NCBI RefSeq assembly: GCF_000012625.1
Contig: NC_007516.1
Location: forward strand, 1,054,001 to 1,118,000
Direction: 5' to 3'
DNA length: 64,000 bases
Source: Synechococcus sp. CC9605
GTDB taxonomy: Bacteria > Cyanobacteriota > Cyanobacteriia > PCC-6307 > Cyanobiaceae
Positions 11,235-49,165 of the stretch are shown piece by piece; position 1 is the first letter of the stretch; each line of letters begins with the position of its first letter. A program made the position numbers and the translations under genes. The notes beneath the pieces were generated by a model, which ran no database searches, was not told where the DNA came from, and worked only from the letters and a program-made list of their open reading frames with translations.

Positions 11235-11966
11235 ATGCAGATCTCCTACTTCCATGTGCCGGCAGAGATGCCGCAGGACCTTCGCCCCGATGCGGCGGTG
11301 GTGATTGACGTGCTGCGGGCTACCACCACCATTGCCAGGGCGCTGCACAACGGCGCTGAGGCGGTGCAGGCCTTCGCCAGCCTCGAGGACCTGCGCGCTG
11401 CGGCAGCGGAGTGGCCTGCTGATGCGCGTCTGCTGCTTGGTGAGCGCGGGGGTCAGATGCTCGAAGGGTTTGACCTTGGTAATTCACCCGTTGCTGTGAC
11501 GCCTGAGCAGGTGGCTGGCAAGCGTCTGTTCATGAGCACCACCAATGGCACCCGCGCTCTCGATCGTGTCCGCGAGGTTCCTCTGCTGCTAACGGCGGCG
11601 TTGCCGAACCGCGAGGCCGTGGCCCAGCGCGTGCTGGCCAAGCAACCCAGCCACGTGGCGATTGTCGGCAGCGGTTGGGAGGGGGCCTACTCCCTCGAGG
11701 ATTCCCTGGCCGCTGGTGCCTTGGGGCATCGCTTGCTGGAGCTGGATCCCACCGGGAGCAGCGCCGCCAATGACGAACTCACCGCGGCCGTCTCACTCTG
11801 GCGTCAGTGGCAATCCGATCCTGAGGCCTGTCTGCGCACGGCGACCCACGGTCAGCGCTTGATTCGCCTTGGCGATCACGACGCTGATTTCCGCTGCTGT
11901 GCAGGGCTTGATCAGCTGGGTGTCGTTCCGACACAGGTCGAGCCCGGGGTGCTTCGGGCGGCCTGA
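11235..11966 (+). CDS. comB: ComB-family 2-phosphosulfolactate phosphatase
   Basis: A 243-residue member of the ComB family, which in methanogens dephosphorylates (R)-2-phospho-3-sulfolactate to sulfolactate on the way to coenzyme M. Family signatures: [13 protein letters not shown] (residues 21-33), GERGG (69-73), GFDLGNSP and [11 protein letters not shown] (99-109), with a late [10 protein letters not shown]. The ATG at 11235 gives the standard N-terminus; the frame is open further upstream but into the divergent UbiD gene. Cyanobacteria do not make coenzyme M, so the substrate here is uncertain. The ComA-family gene at 44755 makes a sulfolactate route plausible. Confidence 0.88.
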
Positions 11967-26302: not shown

Positions 26303-28066
26303 TCAGGAAGCCAACGCATCCAGCTGTTGCGAAGCCTGCTGACGCTCCCAGAGACGTTTGTAGACACCCGGCTGATGAATCAAGGCGTTGTGGTGTCCCT
26401 GTTGAACGATCCGTCCGTTTTCCATCACCAGGATGCGATCACAGGCCGCTGCGGCTGAAAGTTGATGGCTGATCATCACGATGGTTCGATCATCCTGAGC
26501 ACGGATCGAATCCAGAATCGCCGCTGCTGTGTTGTTGTCGACGCTGGCCAAGGCGTCGTCGAGAACCAACACCGGCGCCGACATCAGCAAGGCCCGGCCC
26601 AGGGCTGTGCGCTGACGCTGACCACCACTCAACGTGATGCCGCGTTCCCCAACGATGGTTCCGAAACCATCGGGGAAGCCCTTCACGTCATCAGCCAGGC
26701 GGGCTTGGTCGGCCGCCATTTCAACCCGCTGATCACTGGCCTCAGGCTCGCCATAGCGGAGGTTGTCCGCCAGGGTGCTGGTAAACAGAAAGCCCTCCTG
26801 AGGAACGATCGCCACATCACGGCGCAACGACTTCAGGGGCATCTGGGTGACATCCACGCCATCCAGGAACAGCTGTCCGGGTTCGAGTGGAACCATGCGA
26901 CCGAAGGCCCGAGCCAGCGTCGTCTTGCCGCAGCCCACGGCCCCCACCACAGCCACCAACTCCCCTGGCTCGATGCAGAAGCTCAAGCCATTCAGGGTGT
27001 TCTGTTCAGCACCCTCGTAATGCACCGTCAGGCCGTGGGCTTCAAAACGCCCACGGCGTTTGGTCGGTGGATGGGACTGAACATCAGAGGGATCCGGGTC
27101 TTTGATCTTTGGTTCCCGTTTCAGCAACTCCTCCACCCGCTCGAGGCTCACCTGGCCGGTCTGGAAGGTGTTGAGCGTGAATCCCAGCAGAGCCGTTGGG
27201 AAGACAAGCTGCTCCACGTAGAGGATCAGGGCCACCAGTGCCCCAATGCTCAGACGACCGGCTTCGAGCTGGCCGCTGCCGATGGCCAGCAGCAAAAGAA
27301 CAGAGAGGGAGGAAATGCCCTGCAGCAGTGGAAACAGGGTGCTTTGGGTTTTCGCCAGCCGGATGGCGCTGTCGCGGTAGCGGCGGTTGCGTGTGGCGAA
27401 TGCCTCTTGTTCCGCTTCCTCCTGGCCGTAGATCTTGATGGCCCCGATTCCCGAGAGATCCTCCTGAATCAGGTTGCTGAGGGCGGAGAGTTCTTCCTGT
27501 TGCTCACGCTTCTGACGCATCATGCGCCCGCCGAACAGGCGCACTGAGATAAGCATCACGGGGTAGAGACCAACGGCGGCCATGGTTAGCCACGGATCGA
27601 TCGCCAACATCGCCGGCAGCGTCAGCGCATAGGCCAGCAGCGTGTTGGTGAGGCTGAGAATCGCGAAGCCAAGCAGGCGTCGGATGTTTTCCACATCGCT
27701 GGTGGCGCGACTGATCACTTCACCGCTGCCCTTGATCTGAATCCAATCGGGTTCCTGGCGCAGCATGTGCTCGAACAAGCGCTGACGCAGATCCACTTCC
27801 ACCTGGCGACCCACGCCGAAGATGAGTTGTCGTGAGGCCAGCCGGATCACACACATGGTGCTGGCAAGCAGCACAACCCATCCCGCCTGGCGAAGCACGC
27901 CGGCGTAACTGAATCCCTCCTGCAGCTCGTCCACAACGCTGCGCACTTCCATCGGGATCGTGACCCGTAGAACGTTGACCACCACCAAGGCGATGGCGCC
28001 CAGCAGCACCGTGCGGCGGTGGGGACGCAGATAGCGGCCGATCAGGTCGAGACGAAGGGCGGCCAT
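26303..28066 (-). CDS. ABC transporter, fused permease and ATPase (MsbA/LmrA type)
   Basis: A 587-residue half-transporter. Six transmembrane helices lie in the first ~310 residues, followed by an ABC ATPase with Walker A GAVGCGKTT (about residue 375), signature LSGGQRQRTALGRAL (about 478) and Walker B VLVLDDALASVD. It probably homodimerises as a lipid, peptide or drug exporter. The ATG at 28066 (MAALRLDLIGRYLRPHRR) was chosen over the longer 28105 start since the extra residues are not family-like. The substrate is not determinable here. Confidence 0.9.
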   Translation of the reverse strand: MAALRLDLIGRYLRPHRRTVLLGAIALVVVNVLRVTIPMEVRSVVDELQEGFSYAGVLRQAGWVVLLASTMCVIRLASRQLIFGVGRQVEVDLRQRLFEHMLRQEPDWIQIKGSGEVISRATSDVENIRRLLGFAILSLTNTLLAYALTLPAMLAIDPWLTMAAVGLYPVMLISVRLFGGRMMRQKREQQEELSALSNLIQEDLSGIGAIKIYGQEEAEQEAFATRNRRYRDSAIRLAKTQSTLFPLLQGISSLSVLLLLAIGSGQLEAGRLSIGALVALILYVEQLVFPTALLGFTLNTFQTGQVSLERVEELLKREPKIKDPDPSDVQSHPPTKRRGRFEAHGLTVHYEGAEQNTLNGLSFCIEPGELVAVVGAVGCGKTTLARAFGRMVPLEPGQLFLDGVDVTQMPLKSLRRDVAIVPQEGFLFTSTLADNLRYGEPEASDQRVEMAADQARLADDVKGFPDGFGTIVGERGITLSGGQRQRTALGRALLMSAPVLVLDDALASVDNNTAAAILDSIRAQDDRTIVMISHQLSAAAACDRILVMENGRIVQQGHHNALIHQPGVYKRLWERQQASQQLDALAS

Positions 28067-39863: not shown

Positions 39864-40208
39864 ATGGAGCTGACGCCCGAGAAAATAAGGCTATTCCCGA
39901 TCGTCTTGCTGATGATCATTGGTTGCTTTGGTTTACTCAATTCAAAATCAATTTTACGTTCGCTTCTTTCGCTTGATGTGATTGATACGGCCACCATAAC
40001 TATTTTTGTACTTATTGCTGCCTCCTCTGGTTATCAGACGCCCATCGTTTCCACACAACGATACAGCGCTTATTCAGATCCATATCCGCAAGCCATTATT
40101 TTGACTGCAATTGTTATTGGTTTTGCCACCCAAGCTTTGCTTTGTTCGGTAGCACTTCGCCTCGGTAGAAAATCGCCAATGCTTCGCTACAGAGATCTTG
40201 AAAAATAA
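39864..40208 (+). CDS. MrpC/MnhC subunit (NuoK-like)
   Basis: A 114-residue three-helix protein of the MnhC/NuoK family, a core subunit of the Mrp cation/proton antiporter. Helix 1 is FPIVLLMIIGCFGLLN, helix 2 carries DVIDTATITIFVLIAA and helix 3 PQAIILTAIVIGFATQALL (the conserved DPxPQALxLTAIVI region of MnhC, here DPYPQAIILTAIVI). The start is ATG at 39864. The stop overlaps the next gene by one base. Confidence 0.85.
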   Translation: MELTPEKIRLFPIVLLMIIGCFGLLNSKSILRSLLSLDVIDTATITIFVLIAASSGYQTPIVSTQRYSAYSDPYPQAIILTAIVIGFATQALLCSVALRLGRKSPMLRYRDLEK

Positions 40209-41731
40209 TGGACTTGCAGATTGTTTTCCCCGCACTTATATTCCTGCCTGCATTTTTGGGTTTTGTAGGTTGTGTTTTCCCGAGAATTGTTTTCCCTTTT
40301 GGCGTTTTGAGTCTGCTTGGTTTTGCAGCATCAAGCTTTGCTGCACTTCAAGGTGATTTTGCTTATGCATTCACGCTGGTCGGCGAGGGGGGGATTCAAT
40401 TTTCTATTGATTCTTATGCATTTCCTCTGATATTCGGTAGCTGTATCACTCTACTTATCGTATTTGGTCTTTTTGCGAATCGATTTACTCATTATTTTTA
40501 CCAAATATGTTTGGTTCTGCTCACCGCGCTATTTATTTCCTTCAATGCCGTTGACCTGGTCAGCTTGTTTATTTCATTAGAGTTACTTGGTTTTTGTGCC
40601 TTTCTGCTGGTTGCAGACCGTAATGATAAAAAGTCTTTGTTTAATTCTTTCCAGTATTTGATTGGAGGTGGATTGGCAATGCTCATCTATTTGATTGGCG
40701 TTGTGCAAGCTTTCACATACACAGGTAGTTTCTTGTTAGAAGATCTGGTAAATGCTCCTGATACAGCGCTTTGCCTAATTATTGCTGGCTTACTGACTAA
40801 ATCTGGAGTTTTTCTTTGTGGTTTGTGGGTTCCTAACATTTATTCCCATGCCAACTGTCAGTCTTCCGCAATACTTTCAGGTTGTGTGACCTGTGCTGGA
40901 ATCGCTCCGATTGCACGGATGAGTCAGATTCTGACTCCAATTAGCGATTCCATGATTGTTATTGGTGTGATCAGTGCTGTTGTTGCAGCCATCTATGCGG
41001 TCTTTGAGCGTGAAAGTGGCAGGGCACTTGGCTGGAGTTCTGTCTCTCAATTAGGTATTGCCATCCTATCTCCTTCCTATGGTTGCATTTATGCAATGCA
41101 GCATGGTATCTGCAAGGCATTACTATTTTCTACTTTGCGCGATGAAAACGATCATTCGAATAGTCTTTCTAACCTAGATTCAATGCATTTTAATAATCGA
41201 AATTCACCAAAAGAACTATTAAGAGTAATCGTTTTTGTTGTTGCCAGTCTATCCATCATGGGATTTCCATTTCTGGCAGGTTTTATCACGAAAACCTGGA
41301 TTAAATACGATATACCATTTGAAGCAAGGCTTATTTATACAACAGCATCCTTGCTCACTTCAACTGTATATGCTCGTTTGATTTTCGACAGAATTAGTGT
41401 CTTTTCTAAGAAACAAAATTTAAACCAAGCTACGCCTTTTGATTTAGTAAATGCTTTTAATGACTTATTTGCAAGGCCTAAAAATTATATACTTATGCTG
41501 TCTATAATCTTTCTGGCGTGTTCGTCCCTACTCTTCCCTGAATTGTTAACACTTGGTTCGATCCAGTCAGCAGTTGTTTCTGCAATATTGGGCGGCATTC
41601 TGTTTGTGTCAGTTGTTGGTATACAAGCTGATGACTTTGTCAAGCCGGTGACACGAACACTGGATTTGGTTGGTGCACCTTTTCTTGTCGCTGCTCTTTT
41701 ACTTGCAAATCTCCTTTACTTGAAAATCTAA
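40208..41731 (+). CDS. MrpD/MnhD proton-channel-like subunit
   Basis: A 507-residue polytopic protein of the NuoL/M/N-MrpA/D family. The key Glu of the fifth helix is present (LFISLELLG) and the TM7-like Lys is seen in LLTKSGVFLCGLW. In the TM8-like segment (ILSGCVTCAGIAPIARM) the Lys found in most family members (in VKAGVY-type motifs) is absent. A later GICKALLFSTL keeps the TM12-type Lys. ATGA overlaps with both neighbours indicate an operon. Cation specificity is inferred from the family only. Confidence 0.85.
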   Translation: MDLQIVFPALIFLPAFLGFVGCVFPRIVFPFGVLSLLGFAASSFAALQGDFAYAFTLVGEGGIQFSIDSYAFPLIFGSCITLLIVFGLFANRFTHYFYQICLVLLTALFISFNAVDLVSLFISLELLGFCAFLLVADRNDKKSLFNSFQYLIGGGLAMLIYLIGVVQAFTYTGSFLLEDLVNAPDTALCLIIAGLLTKSGVFLCGLWVPNIYSHANCQSSAILSGCVTCAGIAPIARMSQILTPISDSMIVIGVISAVVAAIYAVFERESGRALGWSSVSQLGIAILSPSYGCIYAMQHGICKALLFSTLRDENDHSNSLSNLDSMHFNNRNSPKELLRVIVFVVASLSIMGFPFLAGFITKTWIKYDIPFEARLIYTTASLLTSTVYARLIFDRISVFSKKQNLNQATPFDLVNAFNDLFARPKNYILMLSIIFLACSSLLFPELLTLGSIQSAVVSAILGGILFVSVVGIQADDFVKPVTRTLDLVGAPFLVAALLLANLLYLKI

Positions 41732-42171
41732 TGACAAATTTCATAAGACTATCTTTAATTCTTTTATTCCGGCTTTCATTGTGGTGCTTGGTGACTGCAA
41801 GTTTCCATTCAAATAATATTATAATTGGTTTAATTGTTTGTCTATTAATACCATTCGGTGATTTTAGAAAGCTAAAGCTATCACCATTGATCTCTGAAAT
41901 CTTGCTTACCTTACGTCTGCCCATCGATATGATTAAAGAAAGTTTTCAGTTGATCTTAATTTCAGATCCTGTCGATGATTTTTCTGAGCAGAGTCTTTCC
42001 AGCCGTGCAATAAATGGATCAAGGTATTCAAAATTTCTAGATCTTTTTCGAATGACTTTTACCCCAATGACATTGGTGACTCGTCTTGAGAAGACTCAAA
42101 TTTGGAGGGTTCACAACGTTATTTCTGCTTCCACCCTGGATTCCCCCCCTCACGAGGTATCCAAGCAATGA
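41731..42171 (+). CDS. MrpE/MnhE subunit
   Basis: A 146-residue membrane protein of the MnhE family, with two or three N-terminal helices and a conserved C-terminal cytoplasmic domain. The segment RMTFTPMTLVTRLEKTQIWRVHNV corresponds to the family's usual SI.LTPGT...V HVLD region, though diverged. It is coupled by one-base or four-base overlaps to MrpD and MrpF. Its role in the antiporter is structural or assembly-related in characterised complexes. Confidence 0.75.
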   Translation: MTNFIRLSLILLFRLSLWCLVTASFHSNNIIIGLIVCLLIPFGDFRKLKLSPLISEILLTLRLPIDMIKESFQLILISDPVDDFSEQSLSSRAINGSRYSKFLDLFRMTFTPMTLVTRLEKTQIWRVHNVISASTLDSPPHEVSKQ

Positions 42172-42446
42172 TTCAATTCAATCCTGTTGGTCTTGAAGTT
42201 CTTCAATATATCATTATATATCTGATGTTATTAATCAGTTTAATCCCCGTTTTTGCAATTTCTAGGTCTAAAGACACACCTGAGCGTATTGCCTATGCCT
42301 CAAGCTTTGGGCATAAGCTTGCAATGATGATACTACTTTTTGGTGTTTTTAGAGGTGATTGGATGATTGGTTGTATTGGTGCATTCATTCTTATTGTTGG
42401 GGATGCCGGCATGCTCATTCTTTCTTTGCTTGAGATGAGGATTTAA
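42168..42446 (+). CDS. MrpF/MnhF subunit
   Basis: A 92-residue three-helix protein (ATG at 42168, overlapping the MrpE stop by four bases). The pattern of an N-terminal helix (LEVLQYIIIYLMLLISLIPV), a charged loop with RSKDTPERIAYA and two more helices ending LILSLLEMRI matches MrpF (in particular the GPs..DRv.A loop, here in a diverged form). Operon position and length support the call. Confidence 0.72.
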   Translation: MIQFNPVGLEVLQYIIIYLMLLISLIPVFAISRSKDTPERIAYASSFGHKLAMMILLFGVFRGDWMIGCIGAFILIVGDAGMLILSLLEMRI

Positions 42447-42449
42447 GTC

Positions 42450-42725
42450 ATGACACTTTCTATACTTTCATACGCATTTCTGTTTGTTGGCTTGTTCTTT
42501 TGGACTTGGGGAACTTTTCCTATTCTGAATCGTGAGCATTCCATCTTCTATAAATTGCACACTCTTACTGTTTCAGACAGTGTTGGTTCACTTTTAATCC
42601 TTTTTAGTTTAATAATTCGTTTCCCACAATATTGGCCTTTGTTAGTTGTAACTGCTCTCTCTTTGTCGTTATGGAACACGATTTCCAGTTACATTCTTGG
42701 AAATATTTCTGACCGAAGATTATGA
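42450..42725 (+). CDS. MrpG/MnhG subunit
   Basis: A 91-residue membrane protein of the MnhG family with three helices (FLFVGLFFWTWGTFPI, then DSVGSLLILFSLII, then PLLVVTALSLSLWNTI). A KLHTLTVSDSVG segment corresponds to the RlHAa...tlG segment of MnhG. It is 3 bases downstream of MrpF and overlaps the next gene by four bases. Confidence 0.75.
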   Translation: MTLSILSYAFLFVGLFFWTWGTFPILNREHSIFYKLHTLTVSDSVGSLLILFSLIIRFPQYWPLLVVTALSLSLWNTISSYILGNISDRRL

Positions 42726-43267
42726 ACAACGCCATCACCAACACTGCTTTAATTTTCCCATTTGAACTCCTGCTTCCGGTTCTGGGAATTCTTCTCATAC
42801 GTTCTCAATCACCAATCAACAGCCTTATTTATCGCTCATTCCTTGGAAGTATATCTGCACTTATTTATGCCCTTGTTGGTGCCCCTGATGTCGCATTGAC
42901 TGAAGTCATGGTTGGTACCCTTTTGTCCTCATTGCTTTACATTGTAACCATTCGTTCTTGTTATTCAATTGTTTTAATCCATGATAAGGGTTCATCTGTT
43001 CCTGATTCATTGAAATTAAAGCTAAAAACATTATTTGATGAGTTGCATTTAAATATTGTTTATCAACCTGAGGATCTAAATGGTGAAAATGTCTCGATTC
43101 TTGATTGCTTATCTTCCTCTAAACATTCAGGTTCGCCCCATGCCATCATGCATGAGTCAATAATTTATTTTGAGGCAGAAAGCCTTCTATTGGATGTGCA
43201 AAATACAGTCAATTTTGATGATTTGAAACTTGACCTATCTTTTTCCACGACTTCATCATTAGCATGA
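42722..43267 (+). CDS. MrpA C-terminal-like / MbhD-type subunit (DUF4040)
   Basis: A 181-residue protein whose N-terminal ~80 residues carry the DUF4040 segment YALVGAPDVALTEVMVGTLLSSLLY, normally found in the C-terminal part of MrpA or as stand-alone MbhD. The large antiporter domain of MrpA is missing from this cluster. A hydrophilic C-terminal extension (about residues 100-181, with acidic and Ser-rich stretches) is not part of that domain. Overlaps on both sides suggest coupled translation. Confidence 0.75.
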   Translation: MNNAITNTALIFPFELLLPVLGILLIRSQSPINSLIYRSFLGSISALIYALVGAPDVALTEVMVGTLLSSLLYIVTIRSCYSIVLIHDKGSSVPDSLKLKLKTLFDELHLNIVYQPEDLNGENVSILDCLSSSKHSGSPHAIMHESIIYFEAESLLLDVQNTVNFDDLKLDLSFSTTSSLA

Positions 43268-43986
43268 CTCCACCATCCAAAACAACAGACTCAAGTCTCT
43301 TTCCTCCTTCAAGCCAATCCTTGAAGTCCCTTGTTTACTTGTTGGCCATCACATCAGTGATGTTCATGGTCTTGTTCTCGCGGGATGACACTCTGGGTAG
43401 AGATACACAGGCAATCGTTGACTATCTTTCTACTTATACACTAATACCTAATTCGGTTACATCAGTTATATTGGTAACACGTCTTTTCGATACTGTTGGT
43501 GAGGTTAGTGTATTTACAATCGCTGGTCTTGGCGTAAAAATCTTGCTGCATGAGGAGGATTCTGAAGAGAGATTTGTTGGGGTTAATGATCAGGCTGTTC
43601 GCCTACTTCTCGATATCGCGGCATTATTGAGTTTTTTCTTGGCCATTGATCTTGCCCTCAAGGGTCATTTAACACCCGGTGGTGGCTTTGCATCAGGAGT
43701 AGCAGGAGCCACTGCTATCACACTATTGATGATCACTGGAAGGCTTCAAAAAGTTGAAGACTTTTACTTCAAAGCCAATGCACCTGCAATTGAAAAATTT
43801 GCTGTTGCTTGCTTCATATTATTAGCGTTGGCTACGTTGTCTTCTTTTTTATATCCTGCTTCAATATTTTCGAATCTTTCACCGGTTTTTTATATCCCAG
43901 CTTTGAATATTATCGCTGCTTTGAAAGTTACCTTTGGTGCTTGGTCTATTCTACGTTTATTTGTCATCAAGAGAGGCGTACTCTGA
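43264..43986 (+). CDS. MrpB/MnhB subunit
   Basis: A 240-residue membrane protein of the MnhB family. The motif DLALKGHLTPGGGFASGVAGATAITLL is the family's hallmark (GH..PGGGF.gG), preceded by DTVGEVSVFTIAGLGV. The ~60-residue N-terminal part may carry an extra helix (YLLAITSVMFMVLF) resembling MbhE. It closes the Mrp part of the operon. Confidence 0.85.
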   Translation: MTPPSKTTDSSLFPPSSQSLKSLVYLLAITSVMFMVLFSRDDTLGRDTQAIVDYLSTYTLIPNSVTSVILVTRLFDTVGEVSVFTIAGLGVKILLHEEDSEERFVGVNDQAVRLLLDIAALLSFFLAIDLALKGHLTPGGGFASGVAGATAITLLMITGRLQKVEDFYFKANAPAIEKFAVACFILLALATLSSFLYPASIFSNLSPVFYIPALNIIAALKVTFGAWSILRLFVIKRGVL

Positions 43987-43992
43987 TTCCAT

Positions 43993-44748
43993 ATGAAATA
44001 TCCAGGCAAAGATCCGTGGTATTTCGGGGATTACCTGGGTGGCCTTCCTGGTAATTACTATTCTTTGCTACTGAATTGCATAATCATACTGCTTTTAGCT
44101 CAAATCGCTTTGAGTACTGAACCATCATTAGACACCAAGGTTGGTAATTTTTATCTTGACTTTGCTTTAAATTTGATCGAGGTTTTCTTTATCACTGATT
44201 ATGTTGGTAAATTATCAAATACATGGTCTTTATCTGATTATTCTACTTCGGGTCTTGTTGCCTCTTTCTTCCAGAGAGGCGCTCTCATTGATCTTGGCAT
44301 AGTCTTGGTCTTGGTAACTGAAGTTTTCCCTAACGATTCGTTTGTTGTGATCGGAATATATATTTTGAAATCTTTGCTGTCAATATATTACTCGAGATTT
44401 CAACGTGTCTTGAAGCGGGTTCAGTTTATCTTGACCGATTCACCTGGTTATACATTCTTTCCCTTGGTTTTGCTTTCCATTGTTACTTACGTTATGGCGT
44501 TTTGTATTTACCTTCTTGAGCGGGATTTTGATTCAGAGCATTTTGGCTCGATCACCCGAGCCCTATGGTTTTCCATTGTCACGTCTACCACGATCGGTTA
44601 TGGCGATGTAACCCCATCAACAACGCTTGGCAAGTTTGTCGCAATCGGTTTTGGTATTGTAGGAATCGTTTGTGTTGCACTATTAACTGCTAATATTTTA
44701 GAATCTAATTCAAGATTCAACGAACTTGGAGAATCTTCTGATGCTTAA
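43993..44748 (+). CDS. Voltage-gated-type potassium channel subunit
   Basis: A 251-residue K+ channel. The selectivity filter TTIGYGDVTPST (Thr199-Asp205) sits between S5-like (PLVLLSIVTYVMAFCIYLLE) and S6-like (FVAIGFGIVGIVCVALLTANI) helices. N-terminal helices include a possible S4 with YYSRFQRVLKRVQ, giving a six-helix Kv-like layout. It begins seven bases after mrpB, in the same transcription unit, which suggests coordinated Na+/H+ exchange and K+ conductance. Confidence 0.88.
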   Translation: MKYPGKDPWYFGDYLGGLPGNYYSLLLNCIIILLLAQIALSTEPSLDTKVGNFYLDFALNLIEVFFITDYVGKLSNTWSLSDYSTSGLVASFFQRGALIDLGIVLVLVTEVFPNDSFVVIGIYILKSLLSIYYSRFQRVLKRVQFILTDSPGYTFFPLVLLSIVTYVMAFCIYLLERDFDSEHFGSITRALWFSIVTSTTIGYGDVTPSTTLGKFVAIGFGIVGIVCVALLTANILESNSRFNELGESSDA

Positions 44749-44754
44749 GTTTAA

Positions 44755-45489
44755 ATGACTGATTACCCAATCTTAACTTTTGAATCTCTTAACCACGTTC
44801 TCGATGTTGGTACGCCCTTCCCTCTCTTTGAATCCTACTTAAATTCATACTCAACCTATATTGATTTTTTGAAGTTTGGTTGGGGAAGTGCACTTGTAGA
44901 TCCCGATTTTTCGCGAAAGTCGAATCTCTGTAAGCAGCTTAATGTTCGTCCTGTTCTTGGTGGAACGTTCTTTGAGTATATGATTTATCGTCATAGCTTT
45001 GACGAATTTTTACGACGAATAGAATCCTTTGGTCTCGATTGTGTTGAGCTTAGTCGTGGAACAATAGATCTTGATGATTCAACTTATTGCTCATATATAA
45101 AAAAACTTTCCTCAAATTTCTTTGTAATGAGTGAGGTGGGTCGCAAATCATCTGACCCGGAATTTGAATTAACTCCCCAGCAATGGATTGATCACTGCGA
45201 GATTTCAGCCCAATCGGGTGCTTCTCTTATCATTCTTGAATCCAGGGAATCTGGCCGTTCTGGCTATGTTTCAGATGGTGGTCAAGTAGATAGTGTTTTG
45301 CTTGAATCGATTACTGCAAGGCTTCCAATTGGTCGCTTTCTGTTTGAAGCTCCCATCAAATCAGTTCAGACTTATCTAATTAAGCGTTACGGACCGCACG
45401 TGAACATTGGCAATATCTCTCTTGGTGACCTCGTTGCTGTCGAATCTCTTCGTAGAGGATTACGCTCAGACACGTTATTGGCTGTGTAA
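44755..45489 (+). CDS. comA: ComA-family phosphosulfolactate synthase-like protein
   Basis: A 244-residue TIM-barrel protein. It matches ComA, which adds sulfite to PEP to give (R)-2-phospho-3-sulfolactate, through LKFGWGSALVD, VLGGTFFEYM, CVELSRGTIDLDD, SEVGRKSSDPEF, the ILESRESGRSGY segment, FEAPIKSVQTYLI and a final GNISLGDLVAVESLRRGLRSDTL. The family also includes plant HSA32, so substrate is not certain. It starts six bases after the channel gene. ComB (11235-11966) is the expected next step, and coenzyme M later steps are not seen. Confidence 0.85.
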   Translation: MTDYPILTFESLNHVLDVGTPFPLFESYLNSYSTYIDFLKFGWGSALVDPDFSRKSNLCKQLNVRPVLGGTFFEYMIYRHSFDEFLRRIESFGLDCVELSRGTIDLDDSTYCSYIKKLSSNFFVMSEVGRKSSDPEFELTPQQWIDHCEISAQSGASLIILESRESGRSGYVSDGGQVDSVLLESITARLPIGRFLFEAPIKSVQTYLIKRYGPHVNIGNISLGDLVAVESLRRGLRSDTLLAV

Positions 45490-45552
45490 CGTCTACTTGT
45501 TTTCCATTTGCTGATTCGCCCTTGTTTTAATGCCAGCTTAATCGAATTAGCC

Positions 45553-45558
45553 TACAAT
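45553..45558 (+). promoter_or_regulatory. Candidate -10 box upstream of the binding-protein gene
   Basis: TACAAT lies about 32 bases before the GTG start at 45590, in the only larger gap of the island (45490-45589). Just upstream is the imperfect palindrome GCTTAATCGAATTAGC (12 of 16 bases symmetric), a possible operator. A -35 element is not clear. Confidence 0.35.
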
Positions 45559-45589
45559 CCCCAAAGAGTTCTCTTGTCGTCTTTGTTGC

Positions 45590-46441
45590 GTGGTTAAGTC
45601 TTTTCTGAGATTAATTGTTTCATTTGCATGCGCATCCCTGCTTCTACTTTCTCCTCTCGAGGCCAACGCAGCCAATGATTTTGTGGATGCTATTCAAGGG
45701 AGAGGTTACCTTAAAGTAGGCTTGCCCCCTTACAACACTCCTCCTGCCTACTACCTTGAAGAAAACTCAGATGAGCTCCAAGGGTACGATGTTGATTTTG
45801 CAAAAACTTTGGCGAGCAAACTCGGCGTAGACATCCAATTTGATCGCTCGTCCACGAGTTTCAATAATCTGGTTGAACGTGTGGGTAATGGTGATTTTGA
45901 TATCGCAATTGGTAAACTTGGTCTTACATACAATCGGCTTTTTGATGCTTTCCCGATTCAATACTTAAGTTTTCGCCATGCCTTCCTTGCAAATCGAGAA
46001 TTTGTTGCTTCACTGGGTGTAGATCCAGATGACCCTAGGTTTGGGGAGATACTGAAGAATTCAACTGTAAGGATTGGTTCGATCAAAAACTCAACCTGGG
46101 AGACGGAGGCAAAAGCTAATTTCCCAAATGCTACGTTCGTTGGCTATAAAAATTGGCCAGCGGCCAAAAAAGCATTGTTTCAAGAAGACTCTGTGATTGA
46201 TGCGATCTATCGAGATACCACTGAAATCAAACCAATTGTCTATTCACAACCTGATTTGTCACTTAAGTATGTACCCATCCTTTTTGATGAGTTGATTGAT
46301 CGTAAGTCCATCTATTTGTCCCAAGATGGAAGGCTTGGCCTGAAAGACTTTATTGACATGACATTGCGCCGAGAGTGGGGAGGAATCAAAACTGACATCA
46401 ACATTCTGGATGAGTTTCAATCCTTCTATCTCCCCTCTTGA
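45590..46441 (+). CDS. Periplasmic solute-binding protein, family 3 (amino-acid type)
   Basis: A 283-residue secreted binding protein. A type I signal peptide (LIVSFACASLLLLSPLEANA, cleavage after about residue 27) and no lipobox. The SBP_bac_3 pattern is clear: GYLKVGLPPYNTPPAYY, GYDVDFAKTLASKLGV, NGDFDIAIGKLGLTYNRLFD (the Arg at the ligand site is kept) and a second lobe. The start is GTG at 45590. No ABC permease or ATPase follows; instead a Na+ symporter gene overlaps its stop. That pairing is unusual for this family. Confidence 0.85.
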   Translation: MVKSFLRLIVSFACASLLLLSPLEANAANDFVDAIQGRGYLKVGLPPYNTPPAYYLEENSDELQGYDVDFAKTLASKLGVDIQFDRSSTSFNNLVERVGNGDFDIAIGKLGLTYNRLFDAFPIQYLSFRHAFLANREFVASLGVDPDDPRFGEILKNSTVRIGSIKNSTWETEAKANFPNATFVGYKNWPAAKKALFQEDSVIDAIYRDTTEIKPIVYSQPDLSLKYVPILFDELIDRKSIYLSQDGRLGLKDFIDMTLRREWGGIKTDINILDEFQSFYLPS

Positions 46442-47784
46442 CCATGCGTCTTAATTCCTCACTTATTCAAAATCTATTTTCCTCCGTCTTTGCATTCCTG
46501 CCGAAGTTGCGAAAACCGCGCAACTTTTTCCTCTATATCTTGCCTTTCTCAATTGTTTTAGGCAGATTTATCCCGTCTTCCTACTCTTCCACGTTAAACG
46601 ATATCGGTGTTTCGTTGGTACAGCTTATTGCCTTTCCAGCGATTCCATTGGTTTTGTCCGCTGTGATGATTTCTATCGCCAACATCTTTGGCTCTGAAAC
46701 TCGAAGCAACAGCGACCGTATCCGATTTGGCACAAGGTTTATTGTTTCATTGCTGGCGGCAATTTTATTTGCATCCTCCCTGGCTCTGCTGCTTTCGCTT
46801 TATCAAAGTCCAGGCATTCTTTCCCCAAGCGCAAAGTTGTCGATTGGGCGATTCATGCTCGATGTCACCGATATTCGTATTGGTGCCGTTTCTGCTGTTG
46901 CCCAAGTGAATGATATTTGGTTTTCCAAGCTTATACCCAGCAACATTTTTGCTGATGCCTCTGACGGCCAAACATTGAAAGTCATCACTGGTTCTGTCAT
47001 TGCTGGTTTGGCAATTGCACGTCTCAGATCTGAATTCACGCAACCACTTATTACTTTACTCCGAAGCATTAATACCATTTCTGTTCAAGTTTTAAGCATC
47101 GTACTGAATCTTGCGCCTCTGGTTCTCATTTGCCTTATCTCTGCTGCGATTTCCACGATCAATGCTGAAATCGTTGTCGCCCTCCTAAATTTCACGATCT
47201 GCGTCTTCCTTACTGCAATCGCATCCCTTGGCATCTCAAGACTCGTCTTTCGTCGTTTCACTTCTACGTCTGAACGCTCAGGTATTTCCGTGAATCCAGT
47301 GGATTCCGTTTTCCTATTGAGCCTGTCTACGGGAAGCAGCATGACGGCTTATCCCTTGCTTTTCGATACCCTCACTGGCATGGGCCGTGATGAATCTGAA
47401 GTTGAGGCTTCAGCTTCACTGAGTTTGTTGATCGCCAGGCTTGGGAATGTTTCCTACAATGTGATAGCCATTCTATTTGCATTGAATCTTTATGACGTGA
47501 CCATTACTCCATTAAGGGTTGTTGAAGTCATTGCTCTGGGGGCTATCACTGGGATTTCTGCAGCTGGGCTCACAGGGGTGGCGACTGTCCCCACCATTAC
47601 TGTGGCTCTTCTGTACTTTCAAGTTCCTGCTCCTCCAATTCTCGTTCTTCTGTTGGCGATTGATCCAATTTTGACCCTCCCTCGGGCTGCTACGACCGGT
47701 GTTTTGGCAATGGCCATTGCCGTGGTTTCTTCTTACAAATCTCCTTCTCAGAAAGTTTTCAAAGATGCTGCAACTGCCGTCTGA
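46438..47784 (+). CDS. Dicarboxylate/amino-acid:cation symporter (DAACS family)
   Basis: A 448-residue protein of the GltPh-like sodium symporter family. It has a long hydrophobic N-terminal half, then a discontinuous-helix segment LSTGSSMTAYPLLFD, matching the HP1 SSS.AT.P element, and the late VTITPLRVVEVIALG...GVATVPT segment (HP2/TM8 region). The start is TTG at 46438 (overlapping the binding-protein stop) or ATG at 46444. The overlap with both neighbours indicates a functional unit with the binding protein. Confidence 0.82.
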   Translation: MTMRLNSSLIQNLFSSVFAFLPKLRKPRNFFLYILPFSIVLGRFIPSSYSSTLNDIGVSLVQLIAFPAIPLVLSAVMISIANIFGSETRSNSDRIRFGTRFIVSLLAAILFASSLALLLSLYQSPGILSPSAKLSIGRFMLDVTDIRIGAVSAVAQVNDIWFSKLIPSNIFADASDGQTLKVITGSVIAGLAIARLRSEFTQPLITLLRSINTISVQVLSIVLNLAPLVLICLISAAISTINAEIVVALLNFTICVFLTAIASLGISRLVFRRFTSTSERSGISVNPVDSVFLLSLSTGSSMTAYPLLFDTLTGMGRDESEVEASASLSLLIARLGNVSYNVIAILFALNLYDVTITPLRVVEVIALGAITGISAAGLTGVATVPTITVALLYFQVPAPPILVLLLAIDPILTLPRAATTGVLAMAIAVVSSYKSPSQKVFKDAATAV

Positions 47785-48271
47785 CTTTCCTCGAAGATTG
47801 TTTCTCTCTCGGTACAGAAAATTAGTTCATTTGCTTTCTGGGAGCATTCGGTCTGTTGCATTAAATATTCTCTGCGTTCTTCTTCTTTGCTTCGCATCGA
47901 CGTCGTGCTCCTTTAATTCGGAACCGCCGAGAAGTCTTGTGATTGAAGCTCTGCAGGCGCAAATTGCTGTCACCCAATCATCAATCTCAGAGAGCCTTGG
48001 TCTCAATCCAACGATCAAGGTCCCTGCGGTTAGCCGTGTGCGTGTCGATCATCAAGAAACACTTAAAGTGGATGGTCAACGCTTCATCCACCTTGAAGGA
48101 AGCTTTGATTGGCAACTCCCCCAAGATCCTGTGCGGGTTGATAGCTCTTTTGAACTTTTCCTCTTAAGGGGGCAGCGCGGTGAGGGTTGGACCCTTGCAC
48201 GGCCTGTTGCTGGCGAGGCGGATGATCTCCAGAGTTGGCTTCTGTACCCCCTTGGGTTACCTCAAGCTTGA
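47765..48271 (+). CDS. Small exported protein of unknown function (putative lipoprotein)
   Basis: A 168-residue protein (ATG at 47765), with the first 20 bases overlapping the symporter gene. After a basic start it has a hydrophobic helix (ILCVLLLCFASTSCSFN) with a weak lipobox (STSC), so it may be lipid-anchored in the periplasmic face. The remaining domain (EALQAQIAVTQSSISESLGL, then VDHQETLKVDGQRFIHLEGSFDWQLPQD) is polar and beta-rich, with no recognised family. It is likely an accessory of the preceding pair. It overlaps the convergent EamA gene by 15 bases. Confidence 0.7.
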   Translation: MLQLPSDFPRRLFLSRYRKLVHLLSGSIRSVALNILCVLLLCFASTSCSFNSEPPRSLVIEALQAQIAVTQSSISESLGLNPTIKVPAVSRVRVDHQETLKVDGQRFIHLEGSFDWQLPQDPVRVDSSFELFLLRGQRGEGWTLARPVAGEADDLQSWLLYPLGLPQA

Positions 48272-49165
48272 TTTCTTTTCACGTGCTGAGAGGCTGATCA
48301 GGGTGGCGGCCAGTACCAACATCCCGCCACCCACCTGCCAGGCATTGATTGATTCAGCAAACCAAAGCCAGCCCCAGCCAGCGGCAAAGACCACCTGCAC
48401 GTAGTTGATCGATGTGGCTCGGGCGGCGGGCAGGCAGCGCAGGCCCTCGGTCACCCAGATCTGGCCCAGCTGGGTCATCACCCCGACCCCCAGGAGCCAG
48501 AACCATTCGATGCCTTGGGGCCAGACCCCTTGCTGCAGCACCCAGGGCAGGGTCAGGGGAACCGAGATCATCGGGAAATAGAGGATGATTACCAAGGAGT
48601 GCTCGGTTTGCGACAAACGCCGCACACTCACGTAGGCCAGGGCGGTCATCAGAGCGCCACTAATGCCGATCAGCGCAGGGATCAGTTGCTCAGGTTGCGC
48701 TGTTCCCGTGAGCCACTGCGGTTGCACCACCAGAGTGACTCCGATCCAGCCCAGCAGAACCGCTGCACTGATGCGTCGGCGCAGGGGCTCGCCCAGCAGC
48801 AATAGCGCTGCCACGGCGGTGAAGGTGGGGTAGGTGTACTGGAGCACCGTCGCTGAAGCGAGCGGCAGCTGGTCAATCGCTTCGAAGAAGCAGAGCAGGG
48901 CCAAGCTGCCCAGCACCCCCCGCACCACCAGCAGCCCCCGTCGCTGGCCCCATGGGTAGACCCCGGCCAGGCGCAGGCCCACAGCGGTCAGAACGATGCT
49001 GATCAGGGCCCGGCACAGCACGATTTCTGCCACCGGAACCCGACTGTTCAGTTGCTTGACGCAGACCGTCATCAGGCTGAAGGCCAGGGAACTCAGGATT
49101 AGGGCACGGCTTCCCCGCACCGAGTCCCGGTTCCACCAGGGTTGTGGGGTCTGCGGTTCGGCCAT
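48257..49165 (-). CDS. EamA/DMT-family transporter
   Basis: A 302-residue transporter with ten helices in two EamA repeats (ALILSSLAFSLMTVCVKQLN in the first; IPALIGISGALMTALAYVSVRRL in the second). The ATG at 49165 (MAEPQTPQPWW) is chosen; the longer 49243 frame covers the divergent dnaG promoter. Such proteins export or import metabolites (for example amino acids, nucleosides). The substrate is not determinable. High GC returns here, marking the end of the island. Confidence 0.85.
   Translation of the reverse strand: MAEPQTPQPWWNRDSVRGSRALILSSLAFSLMTVCVKQLNSRVPVAEIVLCRALISIVLTAVGLRLAGVYPWGQRRGLLVVRGVLGSLALLCFFEAIDQLPLASATVLQYTYPTFTAVAALLLLGEPLRRRISAAVLLGWIGVTLVVQPQWLTGTAQPEQLIPALIGISGALMTALAYVSVRRLSQTEHSLVIILYFPMISVPLTLPWVLQQGVWPQGIEWFWLLGVGVMTQLGQIWVTEGLRCLPAARATSINYVQVVFAAGWGWLWFAESINAWQVGGGMLVLAATLISLSAREKKSSLR

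Follow-up and report, generated by a model that had tools for sequence, protein, structure and literature searches.

Conserved linkage of a periplasmic binding protein to a GltPh-like carrier in Synechococcus sp. CC9605 and other cyanobacteria suggests a binding-protein-dependent uptake system

In the 64,000-nt stretch of the Synechococcus sp. CC9605 genome analysed here (the window; positions 1054001-1118000 of a genome in one contig of 2,510,659 bases), a gene encoding a periplasmic solute-binding protein (SBP) of the SBP_bac_3 family is located directly upstream of a gene encoding an elevator-type carrier of the SDF/DAACS family. We consider it likely, with a probability of roughly two in three, that the two proteins are halves of one uptake system, SBP-dependent and of the elevator type, which would import an acidic amino acid with no canonical Na+ coupling. 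That a binding protein works with a DAACS carrier, as the first-pass annotation of this sequence had proposed, is well supported by comparative genomics through adjacency, spacing, fusion, matched divergence and a negative control. This reading is built on the linkage of the two genes and the extent to which it is conserved, on fusions detected in a distant lineage, on the predicted fold and on the loss of particular residues; from these we infer docking of the two proteins, transport, the substrate and the energy source.

In the mechanism proposed, the SBP would bind its periplasmic ligand, an amino acid that is most likely acidic (of the aspartate/glutamate type), and hand it to the outward-facing SDF carrier, which would move it inward. 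Movement may be uncoupled, or driven by H+ via other residues, or the SBP may confer directionality as well as affinity. The pair would have been recruited, in marine picocyanobacteria, into an ion-homeostasis cluster containing an Mrp-like antiporter and a K+ channel.

The SBP-SDF pair

The SBP gene (45590..46441, + strand; assigned by Pfam and by eye) encodes 283 aa with a Sec-type signal peptide, and the SDF gene (46438..47784, + strand; assigned by Pfam, model and alignment) encodes 448 aa from a TTG at 46438 or 446 aa from an ATG at 46444. Both proteins exceed their Pfam cut-offs, the SBP matching PF00497 with 44.7 bits (E 1.5e-11; cut-off 26.4) and the carrier matching PF00375 with 121.1 bits (E 7.4e-35; cut-off 27.9), confirming that a binding-protein gene adjoins a DAACS-family gene. 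The N-terminus of the SBP, judged by eye, is signal-peptide-like and has no Cys at the likely cleavage site, in agreement with its earlier description as a secreted protein without a lipobox. A genome search identified this SDF as the only one of the genome and detected three SBP_bac_3 matches, one of which is the window SBP.

The first-pass annotation reported a 4-base overlap between the two genes, which is correct if translation of the SDF starts at the TTG, but becomes a 2-base gap if the in-frame ATG is used. Among the 19 related loci measured, four (L034-L037) have an SBP stop overlapped by 4 bases with an SDF ATG and four others (the window, L013, L014 and L039) overlap only via a TTG start. 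Since the window overlap depends on the TTG and the overlaps are not conserved, the argument that they signal stoichiometric co-expression was rejected. Scanning of positions 43900-48600 was uninformative for both promoters (9 promoter-like sites vs 7.6 expected, one of them at 45530-45558, ahead of the SBP gene) and terminators (9 terminator-like sites vs 4.7 expected).

Conservation of the linkage

The SBP gene was found directly upstream of the window-type SDF gene in all 19 picocyanobacterial loci measured, window included, with a spacing (to the first start codon) of -4 to +34 nt in 18 of them and a larger one in the 19th, L038, in which the SBP frame is broken. The L038 contig, labelled as a Rubripirellula metagenome-assembled genome (MAG), carries Synechococcus-like ComA-SBP-SDF-third genes and is probably a binning contaminant. 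The three-gene order envisaged at first thus stood in part across relatives: SBP-SDF adjacency was kept (19/19), but the third gene was not (11/21). The 21 related loci represent 19 genomes, as L017/L044 and L018/L047 are from the same genomes. Among 251 genomes drawn from the family, the SBP was matched in 9, the SDF in 8 and both in 7, with the genes adjacent in 7/7; the eighth SDF match (G127) was a fragment located where its contig ends, and the two other SBP matches (G080 and G082) were the C-terminal portions of single SDF-SBP chains. A pattern-based scan of genome contigs yielded 16 loci, comprising 15 of the window type, 2 of which came from genomes already sampled, and one conventional SDF from Clostridia (L048). 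Phyla other than cyanobacteria were sampled through plasmids and this one scan only.

A profile of the window-type SDF matched 79 of 271 genomes of the class at 1e-15. All 32 loci outside family f1 listed at <=1e-30 (L175-L206), weaker matches being left out, were taken as a second set, referred to here as the racemase group. In 28 of these, the next upstream neighbour on the same strand is an SBP_bac_3-type gene, and in 24 of the 28 this is preceded by an Asp/Glu racemase-like gene. Pfam was applied to three racemases, three SBPs and three SDFs of the group; PF01177 was confirmed in the three racemases tested, and the others matched one of these at E <=1e-89. The racemase-SBP-SDF order hints at uptake, and perhaps sensing, of D-amino acids. 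In L186 it is followed by a dCache/HAMP sensor gene (Pfam), and look-alike open reading frames (ORFs) were noted by eye elsewhere. No match to the K+ channel, Mrp, ComA or the third gene was detected in the 32 loci, indicating that the core consists of the SBP and SDF and that its surroundings in marine genomes look like an addition.

As a negative control, the flanks of conventional SDF genes were analyzed by the same procedure, and an SBP was found in 0 of 31 such loci vs 18 of 18 window-type loci. The 31 include locus L059, from which a wrong ORF had been picked, and which was therefore excluded from the residue counts and trees. A chance or strain-specific gene order is ruled out by the adjacency in 19/19 and 28/32 loci together with the 0/31 control.

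Fused SDF-SBP proteins

A fused-protein query matched 40 of the 251 genomes of the family draw: 24 matches span both domains, 3 are broken in pieces (G144, G171 and G218) and 13 cover the SBP part or a fragment only. Five of the 24 spanning matches were flagged with one internal stop, yet each is one open ORF of 722-781 aa. Pfam detected SDF and SBP_bac_3 on a single chain in all three proteins tested. An AlphaFold model of one fused protein (14 rows; mean pLDDT 79.8, pTM 0.63) has the order SDF, long helix (410-442) and SBP, and matches PDB binding proteins as well as SLC1 carriers. Since the C-terminus of SLC1 carriers lies inside the cell, the extra helix would be required for an external SBP. 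This architecture was also identified on plasmid records of the gammaproteobacteria Halioglobus pacificus and Pseudoalteromonas xiamenensis, the latter fusion being annotated merely as a cation:dicarboxylase symporter family transporter.

Co-divergence and phylogeny

The SBP and SDF distance matrices of 42 loci are closely correlated (Mantel r 0.971, with 0 of 2000 permutations as high), a correlation partly owed to shared species history. In the SDF tree, the split-type proteins, i.e. those with a separate SBP, form one clade (100/100), and the fused and gammaproteobacterial proteins form another (100/99). Split, fused and gammaproteobacterial SDFs share one side of a branch (85/84, not starred), and so do split and racemase-group SDFs (SH-aLRT 94, not starred), while in the SBP tree the fused-type and split-type SBPs are found in different parts. 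Long branches make conclusions on one vs two origins unsure; no SBP was obtained from L150, and the second SBP piece of L177 was omitted. The SBP may have been recruited repeatedly, with adjacent genes in one lineage, fused ones in another, and SBPs of separate branches in the two. The evidence bearing on a role of the pair in SBP-dependent secondary transport comprises linkage, fusion and co-divergence.

Fold and residues of the SDF carrier

The AlphaFold model of the window SDF (mean pLDDT 74.0, pTM 0.74) aligns with GltPh (6uwl) over 364 residues (VIA-align Z 34.2, rmsd 3.1), so that the predicted structure is the SLC1/GltPh elevator fold. In GltPh, N310, D312, N401 and D405 belong to Na+ sites, whereas R397 and D394 take part in aspartate binding, R397 forming a salt bridge with the side chain of aspartate and D394 binding the substrate amine (PMC12668577). 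These positions were compared in 17 picocyanobacterial proteins, including that of the window (L038, L042, L044, L046 and L047 were omitted as partial, near-copies or from the same genome as another row), in 20 of the 32 racemase-group SDFs and in 29 conventional SDFs, which are mainly of the NLDG (H+-coupled) type with L048 as the sole Na+-type row; GltPh was compared in a separate alignment.

We found that N310, D312, N401 and D405 are replaced in all 17 picocyanobacterial and all 20 racemase-group proteins, which also lack N405, whereas the 29 conventional proteins retain N401 in 29, N310 in 26, D312 in 25 and D/N405 in 29. The signature of Na+- or H+-coupled DAACS carriers (N310, M311 or L, D312, N401, and D405 or N) is therefore absent from the window-type SDFs, in which the position of M311 is occupied by Arg (16/17 and 20/20). 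R397, Y317 and D390 are kept in 37/37 rows, R397 thus being present in 17/17 and 20/20. D394 is kept in 13 of the 20 racemase-group proteins. The loss of the Na1- and Na3-site side chains with retention of the substrate Arg makes canonical Na+-driven transport by the SDF improbable. The first-pass naming of the carrier as a Na+ symporter is not supported by its sequence.

The binding protein and its likely ligand

Two SBP residues, R116 and D209, which we take from HisJ/GlnH-type proteins and the alignment to be carboxylate- and amine-binding, respectively, are conserved in 42/42 rows of the lineage; in other cyanobacterial SBPs they occur in 19/19 and 14/19 rows. The lineage also has a signature of its own, R208-D209-x-x-E212 plus D237 (R208 in 41/42, E212 in 42/42 and D237 in 42/42), with R208 present in only 2 of the 19 others. 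Given the racemase gene that adjoins the pair in many of the more distant loci, our best guess for the ligand is an acidic amino acid, possibly in the D-form.

Comparison with known systems

The closest precedent is TAXI-GltS, reported in 2025 for BP0403/BP0402 of Bordetella pertussis, in which an SBP serves a secondary carrier; previously, only the TRAP and TTT families were known to use a soluble SBP in this way (PMC12344293). As in the present case, the SBP gene of TAXI-GltS lies beside, overlaps or, in other bacteria, is fused to that of a secondary amino-acid carrier, there is no TRAP membrane partner, the carrier is of the elevator type by modelling, and the line of argument is the same. 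The two differ in that a TAXI SBP is paired with a GltS/ESS carrier (TC 2.A.27) there and an SBP_bac_3 protein with an SDF/DAACS carrier here, and in that glutamate binding was measured and the complex modelled there (PMC12344293), whereas the evidence for SBP-SDF comes from genes and single-chain models. The different Pfam families place SBP-SDF outside TAXI-GltS. TRAP and TTT systems likewise have a periplasmic SBP feeding a secondary carrier, and TRAP uses an elevator (PMC12344293), but their SBP and membrane families are others: the partners here are PF00497 and PF00375, which separates the pair from both systems, TRAP/TTT genes elsewhere in the genome not having been searched for.

The window-type SDF shares the Pfam family, the fold and the substrate Arg with the DAACS/SLC1 carriers (GltPh, GltTk, EAATs, GltP and DctA), but has the NMD motif, N401 and D405 replaced. 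To our knowledge, these carriers are known as stand-alone proteins. The best sequence match of the window SDF in the PDB (E 1.3e-11) is Anc-Int, an uncoupled ancestral glutamate transporter (9bgy/9bgz/9bh0). Anc-Int is Na+-independent and, unlike the window-type SDF, retains the Na+-binding residues (PMC12668577). According to the same paper, many uncoupled transporters adjoin amino-acid enzymes, a situation resembling that of the racemase in the wider group; the terms 'substrate-binding protein' and 'periplasmic' are absent from its main text (PMC12668577). In a 2010 survey of ionotropic glutamate receptors, the legend to Figure 6 names the SDF InterPro domain as part of a network covering 100 sequences with an SBP, and section 7 of the survey does not comment on the combination (PMC2950845).

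The first-pass annotation had held that a binding-protein-dependent version of DAACS has not been described. In the open-licence literature searched, no DAACS carrier with a binding protein was recognised by title or abstract, so the statement stands for the family, but the concept itself was published with TAXI-GltS (PMC12344293). SBP-SDF therefore shares its functional class with TAXI-GltS, and what is new is the protein families rather than the class. Somewhat short of even odds, we would tentatively place SBP-SDF as a family in its own right, the fourth among SBP-dependent secondary transporters and independent of the others, built on SLC1-type elevator carriers. Its Na+ sites would have been lost as an SBP was recruited, perhaps repeatedly, the SBP replacing Na+ in its affinity and gating role.

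Weighing of the evidence and alternative explanations

Several observations weigh against the pair being one acidic-amino-acid uptake system. 1) The pair is patchily distributed, in 7/251 genomes of the family and 5/17 of the same genus, and thus dispensable. 2) Broken SBP frames occur in L038, L176, L177 and L017, the last with one in-frame stop. 3) In four of the 32 racemase-group loci (G335, G469, G613 and G647, all of genus g83) the SDF has no neighbouring SBP. 4) D394 is kept in 2 and lost in 15 of the 17 picocyanobacterial proteins, i.e. in the window's own lineage, which is the weak point of the acidic-amino-acid guess. 5) The 0/31 control leans on one distant family (18/30 rows from f31) and left out the neighbours of conventional SDFs from ordinary cyanobacteria. 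6) The fused type is only distantly related to the split type, and a search with the window SDF missed the fusions at 1e-5; the fused SBPs lack the amine-binding Asp (14/14), and R397 is found in 0/14 fused SDFs by alignment. Because of their divergent sequences, the placement of their SBPs in the tree and the lost Asp and R397, the fusions support the principle but not identity, and the fused lineage may differ in function from the split pair. As for the third point, a symporter conserved without its SBP had been named beforehand as evidence against the idea and was seen only in these g83 loci; in the two g83 genomes checked, an SBP of the nearest SBP branch sits elsewhere in the genome. These stand-alone SBPs (L151 7516-8415 and L152 7900-8718) have no SDF or HisM-type permease match nearby.

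It is highly improbable that the SBP belongs to an ABC importer with genes elsewhere in the genome, the SDF acting alone and the adjacency being historical. The genome has 14 PF00528 permease matches, all of them outside the window and the nearest at 1017392 and 1205075, so that the earlier statement that ABC components are missing is right for the permease but only locally so for the ATPase, an ATPase-like match being present at 26402-26995 (- strand; E 3e-21), about 18.6 kb from the SBP gene. No permease and ATPase are linked to the SBP. The genome has one HisM-type ABC system, at 1.645 Mb, which could in principle be the importer, but it owns its SBP, the second SBP_bac_3 protein of the genome, whose gene lies beside two PF00528 permeases and, by eye, an ATPase-like ORF. 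Close relatives of the SBP had been expected, were the idea wrong, always to lie next to ABC permeases. In the SBP tree, those of G335 and G469 are neighbours of the split-type SBPs, and in 16 kb around each no match to the two HisM-type permeases of the genome or their ATPase was detected (tblastn, 1e-4); nor were HisM-type permeases matched in the 32 racemase-group and 21 picocyanobacterial loci, although diverged permeases could escape this search. The expectation was not borne out. The ATPase query of the HisM system matched in L176 and L184, there beside other ORFs. The SBP-SDF linkage, kept in 47/51 loci of both groups, and the SDF-SBP fusions of the distant lineage also argue against a separate importer.

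A ligand-gated device, in which the SBP would sense a periplasmic amino acid and gate an ion (e.g. anion) flux or signalling through a degenerate SDF, is unlikely. GluR0-type K+ channels are precedents for coupling of an SBP_bac_3 domain to a membrane partner that is not an ABC permease, and SLC1 proteins are able to conduct anions; in GluR0, however, the SBP lobes flank the channel within one chain, whereas the partner here is an SDF carrier. The lost Na1 and Na3 side chains, the K+-channel and Mrp neighbours of most marine relatives, the dCache/HAMP gene after the pair in L186 (Pfam; look-alikes by eye elsewhere) and a weak SBP match to the glutamate domain of ligand-gated channels (E 0.042, below cut-off) would fit such a device. 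The substrate Arg and its partner Y317 are nevertheless kept in 37/37 rows, the adjoining racemase suits the metabolism of an imported amino acid, and none of the 32 racemase-group loci has a K+-channel or Mrp match. In the CC9605 genome, the third SBP_bac_3 gene has a GluR0-like K+-channel arrangement by eye; the GluR0-like SBP/K+-channel protein at 1.716 Mb (L022 6994-7940) appears to be split over two overlapping frames, perhaps frameshifted.

We also regard it as quite unlikely that the pair imports a sulfolactate-like sulfonate or dicarboxylate in place of an amino acid, with a tie to ComA, whose gene lies between those of the channel and the SBP. The location of this gene inside the cluster, the loss of the amine-binding D394 in 15/17 rows and the second Arg at the M311 position in 16/17 rows speak for such a solute, but ComA was matched in only 9/21 related and 0/32 racemase-group loci, and the amine-binding Asp of the SBP is kept in 42/42 rows. 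Uptake of an acidic amino acid by the SBP-SDF pair remains our preferred reading.

The third gene and the ion-homeostasis neighbours

The SDF gene is followed by a third ORF (47765..48271, + strand; ATG start, 168 aa), which belongs to no known family (Pfam and NCBIfam searches without match) and in the window shares 20 bases with the SDF gene, as had been described. In relatives, the hydrophobic stretch of the protein has, by eye, a lipobox-like end (LSSC, LTAC or LSAC), suggesting that this small protein is probably a lipoprotein. Its earlier proposed role as a core exported partner was abandoned, since it was matched in only 11 of the 21 related loci, and since in L016 the ORF begins about 650 nt past the SDF gene.

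Upstream of the SBP gene are Mrp/Mnh/Mbh-type cation/H+ antiporter genes (39864..43986, + strand), a gene for a K+-channel-like protein (43993..44748, + strand; 251 aa, Ion_trans_2 by Pfam, with a TTIGYGD filter) and one for a ComA-like phosphosulfolactate synthase (44755..45489, + strand; context rather than core). MrpD-like and MnhB-like matches were present in 14/21 related loci and K+-channel matches in 17/21, the four loci without a channel match comprising two truncated contigs and a single Cyanobium MAG that enters the count twice. The antiporter cluster with the channel gene (39864-44748) shows conserved synteny between Synechococcus and single-cell genomes of Prochlorococcus and looks like an ion-homeostasis island. 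In a Prochlorococcus locus (L017 3306-4046), the channel filter reads ISFAFDG by eye instead of TTIGYGD; the SDF persists there, and the SBP has an in-frame stop. The split pair of a Cyanobium MAG (L018 3601-4968) follows a Na+/H+ exchanger gene (PF00999), not Mrp.

The ComA-like protein matched Pfam with an E value of 1.4e-64 and NCBIfam with 1.7e-56 (191 bits vs a cut-off of 280). Besides its gene, the window contains a ComB-family match (PF04029) at about 11253-11942, and sulfolactate synthesis is thus possible. A phage origin of the locus was rejected, with zero blastn matches among 50,697 phage records.

Implications

The Discussion of the TAXI-GltS paper asks why SBPs are not more widely tied to secondary carriers and proposes that an elevator mechanism may be a requirement, which further classes would test (PMC12344293). 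SLC1/GltPh is in our judgement the best-characterised elevator family, and an SBP-linked SLC1 lineage would make this proposal directly testable. Loss of the Na+ sites alongside an SBP would likewise be a natural experiment on ion coupling, and the SBP-SDF pair suggests an overlooked route of amino-acid uptake in cyanobacteria, marine picocyanobacteria included.

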